Part shown: positions 15,033-60,834 of the stretch, piece after piece
How the letters are laid out: the number at the start of each line of letters is the position of its first letter
Position numbering within the stretch: the stretch's first letter is position 1
From: Lineolata rhizophorae
Lineage: Eukaryota > Ascomycota > Dothideomycetes > Lineolatales > Lineolataceae
Length of the DNA: 64,000 nucleotides
Reading direction: 5' to 3'
Assembly (NCBI GenBank): GCA_010093515.1
Contig: MU001670.1
Location: forward strand, 428,454-492,453
Program-made: the position numbers and the translations under genes
Notes under the pieces: generated by a model
Told to the model about the DNA's origin: nothing
Seen by the model: the letters and a program-made list of their open reading frames with translations, nothing else
Database searches by the model: none

Positions 15033-17489
15033 TTACTCCGAGTCCGAGTCCGTGTCAGTATCTGTATCAGTTTCACTTTCCTCTTCGGATTCACTGTCAC
15101 TCGAGTCTTCGACTTTACGAGGTGCCTTGCCAGGGGCTCCGCCGAGGTTGCCCGACTTCAGTGCGTTCATCTGACTTGCCAAACTGTCTAAGGTCGCCAA
15201 GTTAGCGCCACATGCACTACAAAAAAAAAAAACACCTCGGGTTTTTCCGCTAGTGTGGCCTATTTTAGGAAGGACTACTAGCGGCCCAAAATGAATTCGA
15301 AATAAGTTTTCTTGGGGCCTGCAACAGCGGATATGACTCACCTTCTTCAGGCTCGCTAATGTCCTCTTCGTCCTTCATTACTTCTGCCTTAGAAGGGTCC
15401 TCCACAACAAGCACGACATCCATTTTCATATCCATCCCAATGTAGCTATCGCACACCAGATGCATGACAAATGTGTACCGTCCAGGCTGGGCCGGTGCGA
15501 CGAACTGTGTCCTCATTGTCTGCACGTTGAAAGTCGGCTTCCCATTCTCATCGAAAATCGGCTTGGCAAACTGTCTGAAGGTAAACGGAGGGACCGCGAG
15601 TTTGCCGCTCTTGCTATCCGCGTGGAAAAGGTGCCATCTCGGAGAATAGTCGCGCGCGAAATAAGGAGCGTGAGCCAGAGGGGGCTGAACCGGGTTCTCA
15701 CTATCGGTACCCTCACCCTTTTTACGGCCATGGAGTGCGTCGAGATCTCCCTCCGCCGGATCAACGTCCTCCAGGTCCTTCTCGTTGACTTGAGGGACGT
15801 TCATCGTTCCTGGAGGAATGATGCGTCCCTTGACGACGAAATTGACAAGACTTCCAGGGGTGACAAAGCGCTCACCAACGACTTTGAAGAAAGCTTTATC
15901 TACCTTCAATGTAGGCAGCTGCGACACTACTGACATAGCGGTTTCGTATTCGCTGTCTTTCAGGAGGCCAGGCGCAGTCACAAGCTTCTTTCTGCGGTCT
16001 GCTGGAATATTCATGAAGTCCTGTATAGTTAAGTGATGGCGCTCCAAGCCTTCGGCAGCTTTCACGACCGCAGGAGTAAAGTAGGGAAGCTGCATCAGAG
16101 GAGGGGCGCCATGTGCAAGAGCTTGAATGAGATGTTGCGAGGCGCGATACGCGGAAAGGATTGCTCTCGTGTTCATGTATGCAAGGGCGATGGCAGTAAA
16201 AGATTCGTTGAGCGCGGAAGCGATCGGCGCAACTTCAAACTTTTCTAGCACAGAATTAGCCATAGGGACAAGCACAACTGGAAGAAATAGGCGGACCGTC
16301 ATTCAAAGCAGCATCGTCAAGCTCCACGCGACCAAGATACGCCCACAAGAGACCGAGTGCCTTCTTTCGAACAAGGTCATCCATCTCTTGGAACTTTTGG
16401 CGGTCTTTTGCACTCAAGGACGCGCCCACATTTGAAAGGCCCGGCTCTTCGAGTATGCGCTGCTCCAATTTATCAACCCCAGCCGTCCCCTTACTCCCTT
16501 TGAGCAAAAGCTTGTATTCCTCGCCGCTGCTGAACATGCCGATAAGTCCGGCCACAGAGACGTCGTCCTTGTATTCTCTGAACAGGTTGCCCGCGCTTGC
16601 GACCAGGACCTTCTCCCTCGTATATCTCTGAGTGCCGTACCACCATTTTCCGACTAGGTATGGTAGAAGAACGCCAAGCAGGGTTCCGTATAGTAGCAAC
16701 ACGTACTTCCCGTTGCCCTCCGAAACGATGAACTTTGGCAAAGCGATGCCGATGCTGAAACTTTGTTTGCCGTCGGGATGACCGTATTTTAGGTAGTTGT
16801 TGCGAACCTCCTCATCTGTCAATGCCTTGAACGCCTTTGTGACTTCCACCCATCGGTCGTTGATAGCTTCCAAAGTAAGGTTCTTTTCGGGATCGGGTTG
16901 GACTTTATCCGGATGCATGGTCAGCGAAAGCATACGATACCGTCGCTTGATCTCTTGCTCCGTGGCGGACTACAGCAATCGTTAGTGGAATTTCGTAAGC
17001 AGACTTAATGCTGCAATTTACTTACCATCGAGACTTCCAGAACGGAGTACGGGTCCCACAGCTTAGGCGTCGTACGTGCCGTCACCACCATCAAGTATAC
17101 CATCCACGCAATCACGAGCCATCCTCCTATTGATATTAACATGCGCTTTACTTTGCGCTCCTTCCGCTTCTGTTTTCGGCGCTGGCCCTCGATGAGGTCG
17201 GCATGTTCGGGTTTAAAGTCCGACTGTATCCTCGGCGCGGTGTTCTCGAGCCCTAAAGAACCAGTTAGACACCCTTCGCTGCGGATGGTTGGACTACGGG
17301 TTAAGCACCTTTACTAGGCTTGAGCCACGAGTATGTTACCGGCACGGTAATGAGGGCTGTGATAGTGGTGACGAAGTAAGGGAAGAATTGCCCCTGTGCT
17401 CAGACCGTTAGCCAAGTACGCGTTCAAGAGGCTTTTGCAGCCCAGAGAATAAAGCGAACCTGATCGTCATAATTGTAGTCTTGCGACAT
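15033..17489 (-). CDS. SEC63: Sec63, ER protein-translocation J-protein
   Basis: Six exons: 17489-17460, 17393-17309, 17252-17026, 16969-16297, 16244-15342 and 15187-15033, 690 aa. Introns are 66, 56, 56, 52 and 154 nt; every junction keeps phase and restores conserved sequence (DDQ/GQFFPYF, LND/EKFEVAP, SEPEE/DSLASQ). Sec63 is an ER membrane subunit of the Sec61/Sec62/Sec63 translocon; its lumenal J domain recruits BiP for post-translational import. Seen here: N-terminal helix (about 12-32), second helix (about 80-100), J domain with HPD at 133-135, a third helix after it, then the Sec63/Brl region to about residue 640. The tail ends in an acidic D-T/S-D-E run, the usual Sec62-contact region. 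The first exon holds only 10 codons. Length and order fit fungal orthologs. Confidence 0.95.
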
Positions 17490-18512: not shown

Positions 18513-18552
18513 AGTGGACATATTGGTCACCAAGTGGACATATTGGTCACCA
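18513..18552 (+). repeat. perfect 20-bp tandem direct repeat in promoter
   Basis: The unit AGTGGACATATTGGTCACCA occurs twice head to tail without mismatch, 319-358 nt upstream of the Cys-motif start codon and about 177 nt before its TATA box. The position suggests a duplicated regulatory site; the factor is unknown. Confidence 0.85.
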
Positions 18553-18728: not shown

Positions 18729-18736
18729 TATAAATA
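18729..18736 (+). promoter_or_regulatory. TATA box (TATAAATA) of the four-repeat Cys-motif gene
   Basis: A consensus TATAAATA lies 135 nt upstream of the ATG at 18871, which leaves room for a leader of about 100 nt. Strong TATA boxes are typical of inducible fungal genes. Confidence 0.75.
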
Positions 18737-18870: not shown

Positions 18871-19266
18871 ATGCAAGCCATTAACGAATTGCCGGAAATC
18901 GCATTCCCTATGTTTAGAACTCAGCAACTTAGGTGCCGTAGATGCGGTACCATGGAACTGCCGTGCCGTCAGCACATGCAGAACGAGCGCCATGTAGACT
19001 CGCTGTCCGACCTCAAGACGTCTCGGTCGAAGTGCACTGTCTGTGGCACTTGCCTCCCCTGTGCCAGACACGATCAAAAGGACCCTGAGGAGACGCTTGC
19101 TGATGCCGTGGGCTCGAGCTCAATGTGTACCGTCTGCGGGGATCACCTCCCGTGTGCGAAGCACAACCAAAAAGAACTCAATGAAATACCAGAAGGTATC
19201 TCACTGCGCGACATTTGCAGTATCTGTGGCCGCGAGCTGCCTTGCCCTGTGCACTCGCAAAACTAA
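18871..19266 (+). CDS. small protein with four C-x2-C..LPC-x2-H putative zinc motifs
   Basis: Single exon, 131 aa, ATG at 18871 (ACAAAATG). Four copies of C-x2-C-G-x(4-5)-P-C-x2-H lie at residues 22-35, 55-67, 86-98 and 116-128, about 31 residues apart. Each supplies three Cys and one His, which could bind one zinc. The linkers are polar and acidic. There is no signal peptide or membrane segment, so it is probably nuclear or cytosolic. I recognise no named family. Two more loci in the window (57203-57499 and 58013-58248) share the P-C-x2-H ending. A strong TATA box and a 20-bp promoter repeat suggest regulated expression. The even spacing argues for internal duplication. Function is unknown; zinc binding is inference. 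Confidence 0.8.
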   Translation: MQAINELPEIAFPMFRTQQLRCRRCGTMELPCRQHMQNERHVDSLSDLKTSRSKCTVCGTCLPCARHDQKDPEETLADAVGSSSMCTVCGDHLPCAKHNQKELNEIPEGISLRDICSICGRELPCPVHSQN

Positions 19267-20124: not shown

Positions 20125-21483
20125 TCACGGAGGAGGGCTGAGATCAAGCCCATCAACCGTTAATTTAAACGCATCACTCCTAGAATACGACCCAGCAACG
20201 TCCAAGTCTAGTCTCCCGCGCTCGCAATCTTCGAAATCAATCTCAGTCGTCAACATCCCATCGTCATCATCCCACAACGGGCCCCGAAGCACTTCACCCA
20301 GGGGGGATACAATGCACGAGCCACCACGGGAGACGAAGTCATCATCGCTTTCGAAGACTGTCGGATGCGGATGCGATGAACCACTTGTCCTATGCTTTGA
20401 CGATGGTCTGGGCATAGGCAGGGCTAGTTCGTGGCCAGTGTCTTCCTCCATGAAAGAACTCCGACGACGAACATGTGAACTTCCAGTCAATTGCGACTCG
20501 TCATCATCAATCGCCGACGACGATTGATGCAAACCGTTCGCGCCCGTGGCTTCGTGTTCCTTTGATTCCGATGGCATAGGCCAACAGATTTCATGCTGAT
20601 CCTCGGTAACAGTGACCGTTGACCTGCGTCTCGTCTTAGTTTGAGAGGGTATGTTTTCGAAGCTCGCATGGGCGGCATGGCCATCCACATCCTTTTGTTC
20701 CTGCTTCTCCAGCTTGATCCACGCCGGCAAATCCTTCCTCCTGACGGCCTGGTTCGCCGAAAGAACGAAAGCGCGCCCCTCGCACGCCACCGTCCGCATG
20801 AGCGGCAGCCACGTATCTCGGGCGTCCGCCGTCGGCGCGAGGTACAAGCCGACGTTCTGCGCGTACAAGCTCTGCCTGAGCAGCGGCATGTAGTTCTCCC
20901 AGCAGATGGCGGCCGCGAGCGTGACCCGGACGCCACGGATCGTCGTCGCCACGGCCTTCAAGGTCTTGGGGCTGCCCTGCGCCCAGATGAGCCGCTCCAT
21001 CCCCGTCGGCATCACCTTGCGCCGCTTGCCCAGCACGCCCGCCCGCGGACACACGTATACGACGGCGCAGTAGAGGCTGCCGCCGCAGCGCTCCACCAGC
21101 CCCGTCGCCACGAAGACGCCCGTCTCGCGTGCGACGCGCTCTAGTTCCTCGCGCGTGCCGTCGCCGCGGAACTCCGCCCCCTTGGCCACCGGAAGCCGCC
21201 GCTCGACCCAGTCGTCGCCCGCCCCCGCCGGCGTGTCGCCTAGGTCCACGGCCGAATGGAAGTACAGCAGGAACTGTTCGCGGCCGCGCGGGTCGCGCGA
21301 CCCGACGGCGGACCCGAAAGTGCAGGTGCGCGGGTATCCGCCGAGGTAGGCTTCGGGGAAGAGGACGAGGTCGACGTGGGACGCGGCGGCAGCGCGCGTG
21401 GTCTGCTCTAGGGCGGCGAGCGTTTGGGCCGTGGTGGACAGGGTGCGCGCTTGGACGACGGCGACTTTTAGCTTTTGCGGCAT
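20125..21483 (-). CDS. nitrilase-family C-N hydrolase with a long inserted segment
   Basis: Single exon, 452 aa, ATG at 21483. Nitrilases hydrolyse nitriles to acids and ammonia through a Glu-Lys-Cys triad. Here these are E44 ([11 protein letters not shown]), K156 ([15 protein letters not shown]) and C194 ([12 protein letters not shown]). The WENY motif fits the nitrilase branch rather than generic amidases of the superfamily. After [10 protein letters not shown] (about 244-253) an extra polar segment of roughly 130 residues runs to [15 protein letters not shown] (about 385-399), where the core resumes. The insert contains two similar blocks (see findings). Without it, the length would be about 320 aa, normal for the family. 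It is divergent from the gene at 22325. Substrate is unknown. Confidence 0.92.
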
Positions 21484-40291: not shown

Positions 40292-41429
40292 ATTTGAGAA
40301 TGTCGTGGGCGGGTCTCGGGGTGTGATGAGGGAGAAGAGTTAGACGGCAGCGGCGAGCGGCCAAGGAAGCAGGTGGCGGCGCGAGAAGTATGCCACAGAC
40401 GTGAAAACTAATGTGGGTTGGGAAGTATTCTGCGAATTGAGGACAACATCAGCAACGCAGCGTCCTTCTGATCGTCCGAGTGAGGTCTATAGGCAAGGGA
40501 GGATGGAAGGGTATAACAGCACCTTCCGAGGCATTCGAGAGCTTCAGGCCATGTGTGCTACGCCCATGTTCCGCTCTGGAGGCAGTAGGCGTAGCCGCTC
40601 TAGAAACGAGCCTGATGCGAGCAGCAGCAACAGCACGCAGCTACACACAGCGCGACGGGGACGACGCGTTTGTGGGCGCGGAAACTGGGCGTGGACGTCT
40701 GGGCGGATAGGTGCAGCGCGTCGCGGATGCGGCTGGTGGGATCAAAGGCGGCCGGGCGCACAGGGAAGCCAAAGCCCGCTGAAACGGCCCGTGTAACGCG
40801 GCAGGACGACAGGAGAGGCAGCTGGTGCGGCAGCGTGAGGGGACGCAGGTCAGGGCGAGACGCGGCGCGGGGAGAGCAGCTCAGGCGCAACGAGCACTGC
40901 CGTGGGCCAGCGGGCGGAGGGAGGCAAAACCTGCAGTGTGGGCGAGGCGTGGAGTCAGGTAGTGGCAGGAGGTCGGCGGCGGGCTGGTGGGCCTGGGCGG
41001 AGAGCGAGCGAGCCTCCGCCGCCGTCGCCTCCATAGCCGGGCAGCGCCTGCCCTGGCCGTCCCAGGCCTCTTTCCCTCCGGCCAAGCAGCGCCCGGCCCC
41101 GTCCTGCACCACGCACCACCCCGGCCGGCCCAGCCAATGACGCTGCTTGCGTATGCGAGCCCGCCCGGCTTCAGGGCGCGGCCCGGTGGCGGCTGCCTGT
41201 CAACCTGGTGGTCGTCGTCTGCAGCACCTGCCGCACACCACTGCGCCTGCCAGGCTCTTGTGACTTTTTGTTTGCGGTAAGAGCCTGTCTTGTCTCTTTC
41301 ATGAATCCCCCGTCGCCCCTGCCCTGCTGCTTGATGGGACCTTGCCCCTCACCTGCCCATAGTTCCCCGCCCTCGCACAAGAGGAGGCGGGCTGGAAAGC
41401 GCGGCCGTCAGCTGGGCCCCTCCCCGCCT

Positions 41430-54022: not shown

Positions 54023-56015
54023 ATGTCCGGACCCACGATCCAGCTCTATCGCCCGCCTTCCTCCCTCTTCAAATTCCCGCCGGATCCCGCGCCTCCGGCA
54101 CTGCCGCCGCCGGCCGACCCGCTGCGGCCGCTCGCGGCGCCCTTCCCAATCGCGGCCTCTACGTACAACGCCGCGCTGCGCGTCGAGATACCGCTGACGG
54201 TTATCGCCGTCTACCTGGTGGTGGTGCGGGCGTGGAACGCGGCGAACCGGCGGCGCGGCCACAAGCCGTGGCGCGCGAGCCGGACGCGCGCCTTCTTCGC
54301 CCTCGTCATCGCGCACAACGTCTTCCTAGCCGTGTACTCGGCCGCCACCTTCGTGGCCATGCTCGCGGCCCTGCGCGCCACGCTCCCGGGCCTGGGCCTC
54401 TGGGGCCCCGCCAAGGTGCCCGGCACCGACCCCATCTACGGCGCTGTCGGCACCGTCGACGCGCTCTGCAAGATGCACGGCCCGCGCGGCTTGGGCGACG
54501 CCGTGTCGTTCGAGCCCGAGAAGGGCCGCTGGAAGAGCTTCAATCGGGCCGTGCGGCTGGGCACTGGCGGCACCGAGCCGGACGCGACGGACGTGGGAAG
54601 GCTGTGGAACGAGGGGCTGTCGTTCTGGGGCTGGTGGTTCTACCTGAGCAAGTTCTACGAGGTGGTAGACACGGCGATCATCTTGGCGAAGGGGAAGCGG
54701 AGCTCATCTCTACAGACGTTCCACCACGCAGGCGCGATGCTCTGCATGTGGGCGGGCATCCGCTTCATGAGCCCGCCGATTTGGATGTTCGTATTCATCA
54801 ACTCGGGCATCCATGCTCTTATGGTAAGCGGGTTCCCTGGAACACCACTATAGGACACGCAGCTGACACTTAGACTCCCTCACGCAGTACACATACTACA
54901 CCCTCTCGGCACTCTCGATCCGCGTCCCGCAAGTCATCAAACGCACCTTGACGACCATGCAAATCACGCAGTTCCTCGTCGGTGCCTCCTTCGCCGCCTT
55001 GCACCTCTTCGTCTCCTACACCGTGCCCGTCGTCTCGGCCCGCGCCGTCATCGCCCGCACCTTCTCCGCCGCCATCGCCTCCGCCTCCAAGGGCCTCCAC
55101 GACCACGCCTCCGCCGCCGCCGACGTCCTCATGCGCCTCGCGCTGCGCGCCGCCGGCGAGGAGGGCCTCGCCGCCAGCATGGACGGCGTCGCGGGCGCCG
55201 AGGACGCACTGGCGGCAGCCGCGGAGGCGGCCGCGACGGCGCCGCTACCGCCCCACGTCGAGTCGGCGGCCGCCAAGGTGGCGGCGGCGCAGGCGCGCGC
55301 CGCCGACGGCGAGGCGAAGTACGGCTGGGCTATGGAGCCCTGCGTCACGACGTCGGGCCAGGCCTTCGCCATCTGGCTCAACCTGCTGTACCTGGCGCCG
55401 CTGACGCTGCTCTTCGTGCGCTTCTTCGTGCGGTCGTACCTGCGGCGGGCGTCGGCGACGTCGTCGGCCGCGGCGCAGCCGCCGAAGGGGAAGCCGAAGG
55501 GGAGGAGGGGGCGCAGGCGCAGTCGCAGTCTGAGCGAGAGCGTCGCGAGGAGCAATGTCGTCAAGGCGGTCGAGGACGCCAAGAAGGGCGTCGATAGGGA
55601 GTTGGAGAGCTTGGGGAGGGCGGCGGAGGATGGCGTCGTGGAGGTGGTGGAGAAGGCGGGGACGGCTGCGAGTAGGGCGGGTGGCAAGGCGAAGGAGGTG
55701 GTTGCGGGGCCGACCCAGGAGGCGGTCAAGACGGAGGAGGAGGAAGACAAGGTCAATGGGAATGCTGGGGGTGCGAAGGCGTCTAAGGAGGCGGCGCCGG
55801 AAGTGAAGAGGGAACAGGATGCGGAGGCGATGGTGGAGGATGATGGGGAGGATATCAAACAGGAGGACCAGAGTGAGGAAAGGACGGACTCGAGTATGGC
55901 GGTAGCGGCGCAGGGGGGTGCGCAGGAAGACTCAGAAGGGCTAAGCACGGCGAATCCGAAGGAAACAGGCATTTCGTTCGCAGATATGGTGAATATGATG
56001 AAGGAGGAGGAATGA
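54023..56015 (+). CDS. ELO-family fatty acid elongase with long charged C-terminal tail
   Basis: Two exons, 54023-54823 and 54888-56015, 642 aa; the 64-nt GTAAGC..CAG intron joins in phase 0 (HALM/YTYYTLSAL). ELO proteins are ER membrane condensing enzymes that lengthen acyl-CoAs. The core motifs are present: FYLSKFYEVVDTAIILAKGK, the histidine box as Q231-T-F-H-H235 (fungal Q form of H-x-x-H-H), AGAMLCMWAGIRFMSPPIW and MYTYYTL. An Ala-rich insert of roughly 100 residues precedes the last helix. After it a tail of about 190 residues is first Arg/Ser-rich (GRRGRRRSRSLSESVARS), then Glu/Lys-rich, ending FADMVNMMKEEE. Usual length is 300-350 aa, so about half is extra. Chain-length preference cannot be told. 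Confidence 0.9.
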
Positions 56016-57202: not shown

Positions 57203-57499
57203 TTAACCAAACATAATGCCGTGCACAGGGCAGGGAACGGGCTGCGTCTTGCCATCAATTTGGCACAGAACGCAGATGATAGCGCCCTTCTGTTTCGCCA
57301 GCACCTGCGGATACTTTTCGTGACACGCTGGGCAAGCCCCCTTGTGCCTGCCCTTGGGCTCGAAGGGCTTATGGCAGTGCTGGCAGATCATGGTAGAAGG
57401 CTTGCTCGAGCCTTCGCCGTTATCTGGCTTCTGATTCTTGCTCGGGTCCTGATTCGGGTCCTGAGCCGGTTGCTTGTCCCTATTTTGAGACGACGACAT
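57203..57499 (-). CDS. small protein with zinc-ribbon pair and C-x2-C-x10-C-x2-H motif
   Basis: Single exon, 98 aa, ATG at 57499. The first 35 residues are Gln/Asp/Pro/Lys-rich and probably disordered. C39-x2-C42-x13-C56-x2-C59 forms a zinc-ribbon-like pair (ICQHCHKPF..ACPACHEKY). C76-x2-C79-x10-C90-x2-H93 (CVLCQIDGKTQPVPCPVH) follows near the C-terminus. No signal peptide or membrane helix, so nuclear or cytosolic location is likely. The P-C-P-V-H ending equals the last motif of the 18871-19266 protein, and the neighbouring relic at 58013-58248 has the same C-x2-C-x10-C-x2-H spacing. Family not recognised; zinc binding is inferred. Confidence 0.75.
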   Translation of the reverse strand: MSSSQNRDKQPAQDPNQDPSKNQKPDNGEGSSKPSTMICQHCHKPFEPKGRHKGACPACHEKYPQVLAKQKGAIICVLCQIDGKTQPVPCPVHGIMFG

Positions 57500-58012: not shown

Positions 58013-58248
58013 CTAGTCACAAGTCAAGACCTTCACTAAAAGTGAGAATCGTGACTGTTTAGAGCAAATTCCATGCTCTTGGCAAGGGAGCTTCTTGTCT
58101 TTTCTTCTAATGGCACAAACAAAGCATGAGAGAAGTCCCTTACAATTTTCTGCACACGCAGCATGCGCAGTACATGAGAAGTTCTTGCGACAGGGCACTC
58201 CGTCATGGTTGGGGCATGTTCCAATTCACAAGAATCACAGCTTCCCAT
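58013..58248 (-). pseudogene. frameshifted paralogue of the Cys-motif family
   Basis: The frame from the ATG at 58248 starts MGSCDSC, then loses Cys content. A second frame, open from about position 58225 and ending at 58013, reads TCPNHDGVPCRKNFSC, more Cys pairs, then CFVCAIRRKDKKLPCQEHGI. That last part has the same C-x2-C-x10-C-x2-H-G-I layout as the gene 500 nt away. One base gained just after the CDSC codons would join the two frames into about 79 residues. A spliced model was tried: the only in-phase acceptor gives a 32-nt intron, too short for a fungus. A TATA-like site (58365-58369, minus) remains about 120 nt upstream. Either a recent pseudogene or an assembly error. Confidence 0.6.
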
Positions 58249-59031: not shown

Positions 59032-60834
59032 TTAACATCCCAGCACTGCCCTTGCCGCCAGTGGATCCATCTTCGCCAACTCCAATTCGTAATGTCCAAG
59101 TTCATCCTCCCTCAACACTTTAGCATGGCCCTCCTCATACCCTGCCTTATCCCTTCCGCGATAGACCCAGCTGTGCCTTTGCGCCACGTCTTTCGCGCGC
59201 TGGCTCCAGTCTCCGCCGTCCTCGGCGCTCCACTTATCGGCCGCTTCATGCTGCGAAGACGCACCGCCTAGGACCGTATCGGCGTGTTGCAGCACGGGGC
59301 CTTCGTCCTGCAGGGCCCATCCGGCGAGCGCTTTTGGACGGTATACGCCGGACTTGTCATTGGCCTTGGGTCCGCGCAACAGGATACGCGCGCGCACAGA
59401 TGCGTGGACGAATTCGCAGGTGTCGGATAGCGCATGTCCAGTGCGCTTGCCTGTTCCGCCATCGACCCGACGATAGAGGCCCGGAGTGCGGGGCTTGCTG
59501 AAGAGTAGGTTGGAGGGGAATCCCTGTGTCGTGTGCAACGTGCCCTGTGCCCAGCCGCGGAAGGGCGAGTTCCCGTCGGTAGCACGTTTGGTAGAGAAGA
59601 GGCCGGATTGCTTGGGCTTCGGCTCCGGGTTTCCAGTAGCGTAAAGGGGAGCCGGGCGAAGCATTGAGAAAGGAAGTGAAGGGAGGCGATTGACATATAG
59701 GCGGTTGAACTCGAGACCGCAGTAGTGCAGCTGCGACATCATCCATGCGAGAGAGATGTCAGCGGGAGCGGTTTGATCGTAGCCACCGCCAACGTCGGCA
59801 TGCGAACCAGGAAACCAGACTTGTTTGAGGTTAGTATGACATCCCGGTGGACGCTCCCAGAGAGTCGGTGAAAAGGGTGACCGGGTCTCATCAAGAGAGA
59901 GGGCATGGAAAGCATTCTGAATATGGTTCCCTAGGCCAGTATCATTGAATCTGTACTCGTTGACAGTAGTGGGAAGGCAGAGTTTCGACATCACCGGCGA
60001 GACTGGTATGCCGAGCGCACCTAAGGTCATATTAGCGCTGTGGAATATGAGAATTTCGAGCGAACCTACCGACTGTATCCCAAACACCAATAGCCATGAC
60101 TCTGGGCTCACGGATCATTCCCATCTAATATGCATCGCGTTGTTAGCACTGTTCTGCCCACAATATACGTATAGAAAGGAAAATTGTCTAGGACCCACGT
60201 GTTTAAGCTTCGCCTTGTAATCACTCAGATAGTCCTGCGCATTTCCCGGGACAGCCTCGAGTTTGAAATCCGCAAGGGCGGAAGGGAGTTTAGGTTTGTA
60301 CTTCAATGACCCAGCGTTCTCCCAGTCCTTGAGAACATCGTAGAAGAATGGCAAGCCTTCTTTGTTTAGAAGACCCATGCTTCCAATGAGACCGCCAATG
60401 CTGCGGGCTGTCCAAGCTCCTCGAGAGAACCCGATGAGGAAAATCTCATCGCCCTCGGCCCAGTTGTTGCAAATAAAGCCGTAGGCTTCGCGGATGTTTT
60501 CTGAGAGTCCCTCGCCAGTGGCTCCACCGACGTACCGCTCTACAGTGGACCAGCTAGTACCGACGCCAGACTGGTAGAACACAATTTGGTCATGGCCATC
60601 GAAAGTCTTGGCAGGAATGGCACGGGAGATACGGGTTACGTTTGACGGTGTTTGGAGATGACCTGTTGGATCCAGGAGGGTGCCTTCAACCCAGCCGTTA
60701 TCACTGTTAAACCACGTCCCTTGCAAATGAGGTTAGCTTTACCGGAAAGAATTAGGAATGAAGCATTCGGTACCATCGCAGCAGATGATGAGTCGTTTGT
60801 TGTTTTGGTATTTCGACGGCCCTACGAGAGGCAT
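59032..60834 (-). CDS. DUF2235-family alpha/beta hydrolase
   Basis: Four exons: 60834-60774, 60719-60199, 60124-60070 and 60020-59032, 541 aa. Introns are 54, 74 and 49 nt; the first two have CTAAC branch sites. All junctions are in phase and rebuild family blocks (CCD-GTWF, LKH-MGMIREPRVMAIGVWDTVG-ALGIP). DUF2235 proteins share the catalytic fold of bacterial type VI phospholipases (Tle1) and are common, uncharacterised proteins in fungi. The opening LIICCDGTW, the nucleophile elbow GFSRG (S119) and the block VWFPGSHADVGGGY with the likely acid Asp are all present. No signal peptide. It lies head to head with the amidase gene, 1.08 kb apart. Lipase or esterase activity is inference. Confidence 0.92.

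Follow-up and report, generated by a model that had tools for sequence, protein, structure and literature searches.

The window, by which we mean the whole 64,000-nucleotide stretch of DNA analysed, contains an intronless gene for a small protein carrying four copies of a short Cys/His unit, with the consensus C-x2-C-G-x(2,3)-L-P-C-x2-H-x-Q. Judging from this motif, the protein very probably binds zinc, and the label of a new zinc-binding repeat, under which the gene had been put forward in a first-pass annotation of this DNA, is plausible. Coordinates of the gene, of its units and of the other features discussed below are collected in Table 1.

Table 1. Features of the four-unit gene and its surroundings (positions in the window)
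Feature	Position	Strand	Detail
Duplicated 20-bp element upstream of the four-unit gene	18513..18552	+	perfect tandem duplication
TATAAA box	18729..18734	+	142 bases upstream of the four-unit ATG
Intronless ORF, candidate zinc-loop protein	18871..19266	+	131 aa; ATG to TAA, intact
Unit 1, C-x2-C-x6-C-x2-H	18934..18975	+	residues 22-35; Cys/His 22/25/32/35
Unit 2, C-x2-C-x5-C-x2-H	19033..19071	+	residues 55-67; Cys/His 55/58/64/67
Unit 3, C-x2-C-x5-C-x2-H	19126..19164	+	residues 86-98; Cys/His 86/89/95/98
Unit 4, C-x2-C-x5-C-x2-H	19216..19254	+	residues 116-128; Cys/His 116/119/125/128
Sec63-like protein gene, left neighbour	15268-16302		PDB E 4.6e-115
Carbon-nitrogen hydrolase gene, right neighbour	20128-21483		Pfam E 2.2e-30
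Possible second small gene	57203..57499	-	98 aa; positive codon score, 0.12 per codon
Remnant-like stretch with one C-x2-C-x10-C-x2-H	58016..58225	-	codon score -0.21

The four-unit gene and its repeat

As the first-pass annotation had stated, the gene is intact, its frame running unbroken over all 131 codons. Its codon usage is coding-like: among 386 overlapping intergenic stretches, 0.5% reached its codon score and 0.3% its silent-codon score. Per codon the score was 0.02, compared with 0.15-0.29 in three conserved genes scored alongside, which are themselves members of the training set of the score. The encoded protein contains 13 Cys and 6 His among its 131 residues and is near neutral in charge (15 Lys/Arg, 17 Asp/Glu), and inspection of the translation by eye revealed no signal-like hydrophobic N-terminus. 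Upstream of the gene, the putative TATA box and the duplicated, putative promoter element announced earlier are both present as sequences; the 13-base core of the duplicated element has no second exact copy elsewhere in the window.

The claim of four C-x2-C-x(5-6)-C-x2-H units about 31 residues apart was borne out, with unit starts spaced by 33, 31 and 30 residues and loops between the second and third Cys of 6, 5, 5 and 5 residues. The candidate ligands account for 12 of the 13 Cys and 4 of the 6 His, and all 16 are retained across the four units, the thirteenth Cys being an extra one inside the loop of unit 2. In a MAFFT alignment of the units, 8 columns are invariant, with the residues C, C, G, L, P, C, H and Q.

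A chance origin of the four-unit array is excluded, and the margin is very large. When the residues of the protein were shuffled 20,000 times, 19,807 shuffles contained no unit, 193 contained one and none contained two or more. Searching the six frames of the window with C-x2-C-x(3,12)-P-C-x2-H gave 6 occurrences, four in the gene and one each near 57.27 and 58.13 kb, both on the minus strand, whereas 100 dinucleotide shuffles averaged 0.06 and never exceeded 2. The pattern C-x2-C-x(5,6)-C-x2-H occurred 4 times in the window, compared with a shuffle mean of 0.21 and a maximum of 1. Used as a weaker control, a DNA pattern that fixed the loop at 5 residues and tolerated up to 3 mismatches matched 4 times, three times exactly within the gene and once with 3 mismatches at 41264; its mean in shuffles was 0.88, and a count of 4 was attained in 1 of 100. 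All these search patterns were picked after the gene was known, so that the chance figures are a guide and no formal test. For the loci at 57 and 58 kb the margin over chance is only modest, because at least one shuffle also gave two occurrences.

We also compared the units with each other at the codon level. Over 16 core codons, the pooled silent difference among the four units was 0.84 and the replacement difference 0.31; in the 8 invariant columns the corresponding values were 0.97 and 0.00, the latter by construction, as those columns were chosen for their invariance. Silent differences were found in 28 of the 48 codon pairs of the invariant columns. The counts behind these values are small (16 codons in four units, with one residue of unit 1 omitted) and were made without neutral simulation, and some pairwise silent values exceed 1, an effect of the counting method. 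With silent sites near saturation and eight positions unchanged, the repeat is therefore kept as protein, and the units look like old copies in which the ligand residues have been held.

These values bear on the possibility that the gene is an orphan or confined to one lineage, without a settled function, and that its repeat came from internal duplication. Such an origin would fit a small, intronless gene with no homologue in the libraries and collections searched, none of them a collection of fungal genomes; on the other side, near-saturated silent sites combined with unchanged ligands make the duplication look old and the units long constrained, and we consider this explanation quite unlikely.

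Loci at 57.2 and 58.1 kb and other features of the window

Two related loci had also been proposed, and both exist on the minus strand, at about 57.2 and 58.1 kb; their link with the four-unit gene holds at the motif level only, and one of them looks decayed. The frame at 57.2 kb is plausible as a second small gene. It encodes a ribbon-like C-x2-C-x13-C-x2-C followed by C-x2-C-x10-C-x2-H, ending in PCPVHG, and a TATAAA lies 149 bases upstream of its ATG. The N-terminus of this 98-aa protein is rich in Lys, Asn, Gln and Pro. A weak, sub-threshold likeness to HypA-type zinc sites was seen in the same frame: Pfam returned 19 families, all under cut-off, with HypA best (E 0.013, 16 bits against a cut-off of 28.9), and hypA was also the best NCBIfam model (E 0.0025, 17.8 bits against 88.1) and was not accepted. 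At 58.1 kb, codon use is not coding-like and the stretch looks decayed; Pfam found 0 families in this frame.

Searches among the window's own frames showed that the 58.1 kb stretch resembles the 98-aa protein across 25 aa (E 0.001), while the 98-aa frame matched the four-unit protein by BLASTP at just E 0.46; the latter two therefore share a motif, homology not being shown. The loop between the two inner Cys is 10 residues at both loci, compared with 5-6 in the four-unit gene. When 2,303 frame pieces from the window were searched with a profile of the four units, the gene itself was recovered at 8.2e-40. The next piece, 57254-57114, lies in a frame different from that of the 98-aa protein, scored E 0.018, below inclusion, and was taken as chance since a stop sits just before the motif in that frame; the 98-aa frame was absent among the best 20 matches listed. 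On this outcome we gave up the view that close paralogy links the loci at 57 and 58 kb with the four-unit gene. Comparison of the upstream regions gave exact words of 8-10 bases and words of 12-13 bases with one mismatch (best E 0.37), which does not show a shared promoter element.

Elsewhere in the window we found transportin-like, ferric reductase, amidase and ELO genes. Together with the Sec63-like and hydrolase neighbours of the four-unit gene, this gene content is in keeping with a filamentous fungus. The ELO fatty-acid elongase matches fall in two adjacent plus-strand frames (54023-54853 and 54957-56015) that cover profile positions 6-155 and 180-240 of 242, and the two frames are probably one gene with an intron. 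At 59035-60030 on the minus strand, a Tle1-like phospholipase profile is matched at positions 183-287 of 287 only, and the first part of this gene may lie in another exon. An imperfect tandem repeat of 2.5 copies of a 60-bp period occupies positions 1014-1165. Scanning the window for Rfam families and tRNAs gave no matches.

Searches for relatives and predicted structure

According to the first-pass annotation no named domain is known to have this LPC-x2-H ending, and the library searches agree. Nothing passed the cut-off in Pfam or NCBIfam with the whole four-unit protein (best E 0.59 and 0.32, respectively), and the four pieces of the protein (33, 31, 30 and 26 residues) gave 0 Pfam families each. 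A single-sequence search of the PDB returned 0 matches at E up to 10. With the four-unit profile, the PDB gave 35 weak matches (best E 0.32), and in 34 of them the best stretch stops at or before profile position 16, short of the PCxxH half. The five printed alignments span the CxxCG knuckle and a few flanking residues, and the lone match covering positions 6-24 is the large subunit of a NiFe-hydrogenase (E 4.5). Very short motifs are hard targets for such libraries, and the units may be distantly related to a known class. A literature search by motif spelling and topic, in a corpus covering few subscription journals, listed no paper on this motif; the one match to the spelling was on a Streptomyces protein, unrelated by its title and abstract.

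We also looked for relatives in collections of prokaryotes, phages, viruses and plasmids, none of them a fungal genome collection. Protein-based scans with the four-unit protein gave 4 stretches fitting the pattern in viral contigs and 57 in prokaryote genomes, with 0 confirmed in either, and the 98-aa protein gave 2 in viral contigs, again with 0 confirmed. A two-unit DNA pattern had 0 matches in prokaryote genomes and in viral contigs, and 0 in viral contigs when the Leu position was left free; these DNA patterns start with TGTGG, which misses any first unit that has TGC as its second Cys codon, and require 5-residue loops. The tblastn searches returned 4 phage records at E about 10 and 4 plasmid records (best E 4), all taken as chance. 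The absence of relatives says little, since the scanned collections are not meant to hold fungal genomes.

Structure prediction of the full-length protein from the single sequence was unusable (mean pLDDT 38.6). A 35-residue unit modelled with the four-unit alignment, without a shuffled control, reached an overall pLDDT of 75.5 and a pTM of 0.40. The core of this model is predicted with more confidence (mean pLDDT 92 for residues 11-20; at least 90 for 12 of the 35 residues). Regular helices and strands are absent from the model, which shows only isolated bridge residues, at positions 8, 15, 18 and 23. Foldseek comparison of the unit model with the PDB gave 16 matches, all at E 6 or worse; therefore, no fold was assigned to the unit.

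Proposed role and comparison with known metal-binding classes

We propose that this small protein is probably intracellular and forms four short zinc loops, each independent of the others. The C-x2-C-G knuckle of a unit would give two ligands and the C-x2-H that follows a tight L-P turn would give two more, one zinc ion being wrapped by 13-14 residues. Between the loops, the linkers are 17-19 residues long and look flexible, and the zinc-held loops would bind a partner, making the protein a multivalent adaptor. Taken as a whole, this picture of independent zinc loops on flexible linkers acting as a protein-binding adaptor has, in our estimate, an even chance of being right.

On a wider scale, we tentatively suggest, and with more doubt than confidence, that C-x2-C-G-x(2,3)-L-P-C-x2-H-x-Q, together with longer-loop forms such as the one at 57.2 kb, represents a zinc-binding module not described before: a kind of minimal zinc loop, having a fold and a partner surface of its own, that spread within a fungal lineage, both singly and in tandem, in small genes driven by a TATA box. 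Conservation of the module among fungi would add a very short metal-binding repeat to the catalogue, help to name unannotated small Cys/His proteins and provide a compact scaffold about 14 residues long; were it restricted to one species, this would be an ordinary orphan gene.

Among known classes, the retroviral nucleocapsid-type CCHC zinc knuckle, C-x2-C-x4-H-x4-C, binds a single zinc ion within some 14 residues, begins with C-x2-C and can occur in tandem. By this definition the units resemble it in length and in their C-x2-C start, whereas all four units have their ligands in the order C-C-C-H, with His last and not third, and Pfam gave no match to the knuckle. The zinc ribbon is built of two CxxC-type knuckles on beta hairpins, usually at least 12 residues apart. 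The CxxCG of rubredoxin and zinc-ribbon knuckles is the first half of every unit, but in those proteins the second CxxC lies further off, while the units have LPCxxH just 5-6 residues later. With this gap and a CxxH second half the ribbon was rejected as an assignment, and Zn_Ribbon_1 reached E 6.7 and 7.1 bits against a cut-off of 25. The 4Fe-4S ferredoxin motif, Fer4, reads C-x2-C-x2-C-x3-C-P. Fer4 was the best Pfam match and was likewise rejected (E 0.59, 10.5 bits against a cut-off of 21.1, residues 52-61 only). Because of its extra Cys, unit 2 reads C-x2-C-x2-C-x2-C, whereas units 1, 3 and 4 are without this Cys and no C-x3-C-P follows.

Metallothioneins are rich in C-x-C, with little else conserved. 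A metallothionein-like buffer or store, whose Cys and His hold zinc or copper without any partner role, would be consistent with 13 Cys in 131 residues, 12 of them within the repeated motif; this density is nonetheless low for a metallothionein, C-x-C is absent from the translation, and every unit conserves G, L, P and Q. As these four residues are not ligands, their conservation argues for a defined loop and surface and not for a loose thiol cluster, and we regard a buffering role as quite unlikely.

By ligand order, the CCCH finger is the nearest class. The CCCH definition is C-x4-15-C-x4-6-C-x3-H (PMC2267713), and only the middle spacing of the units fits it, the first being 2 instead of 4-15 and the last 2 instead of 3; the invariant G..LP and H-x-Q also lie outside this definition. 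Moreover, the Pfam searches with the complete protein and with its pieces listed no CCCH model at E up to 10, where HMMER filters discard most matches above E of about 0.1. Tandem RNA- or DNA-binding fingers of the Nab2 or MBNL1 kind, each short C3H loop touching a few bases, would agree with the C-C-C-H order and the second spacing of 5-6 that the units have in common with the fingers of Nab2, TIS11d, MBNL1 and Pan3. Against such fingers stand the two deviating spacings, the missing Pfam model and a protein that is not basic, and we hold this role to be unlikely. Given the near-neutral charge and the absence of any CCCH match, a protein partner is likelier than RNA or DNA, and a protein-binding adaptor is therefore more likely than a nucleic-acid binder. 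What the candidate zinc-loop adaptor does have in common with this class, besides ligand order and the second spacing, is the use of several fingers per chain: among RNA-binding proteins, MBNL1 has four fingers, TIS11d two and Nab2 seven (PMC4158885), next to the four units found here.
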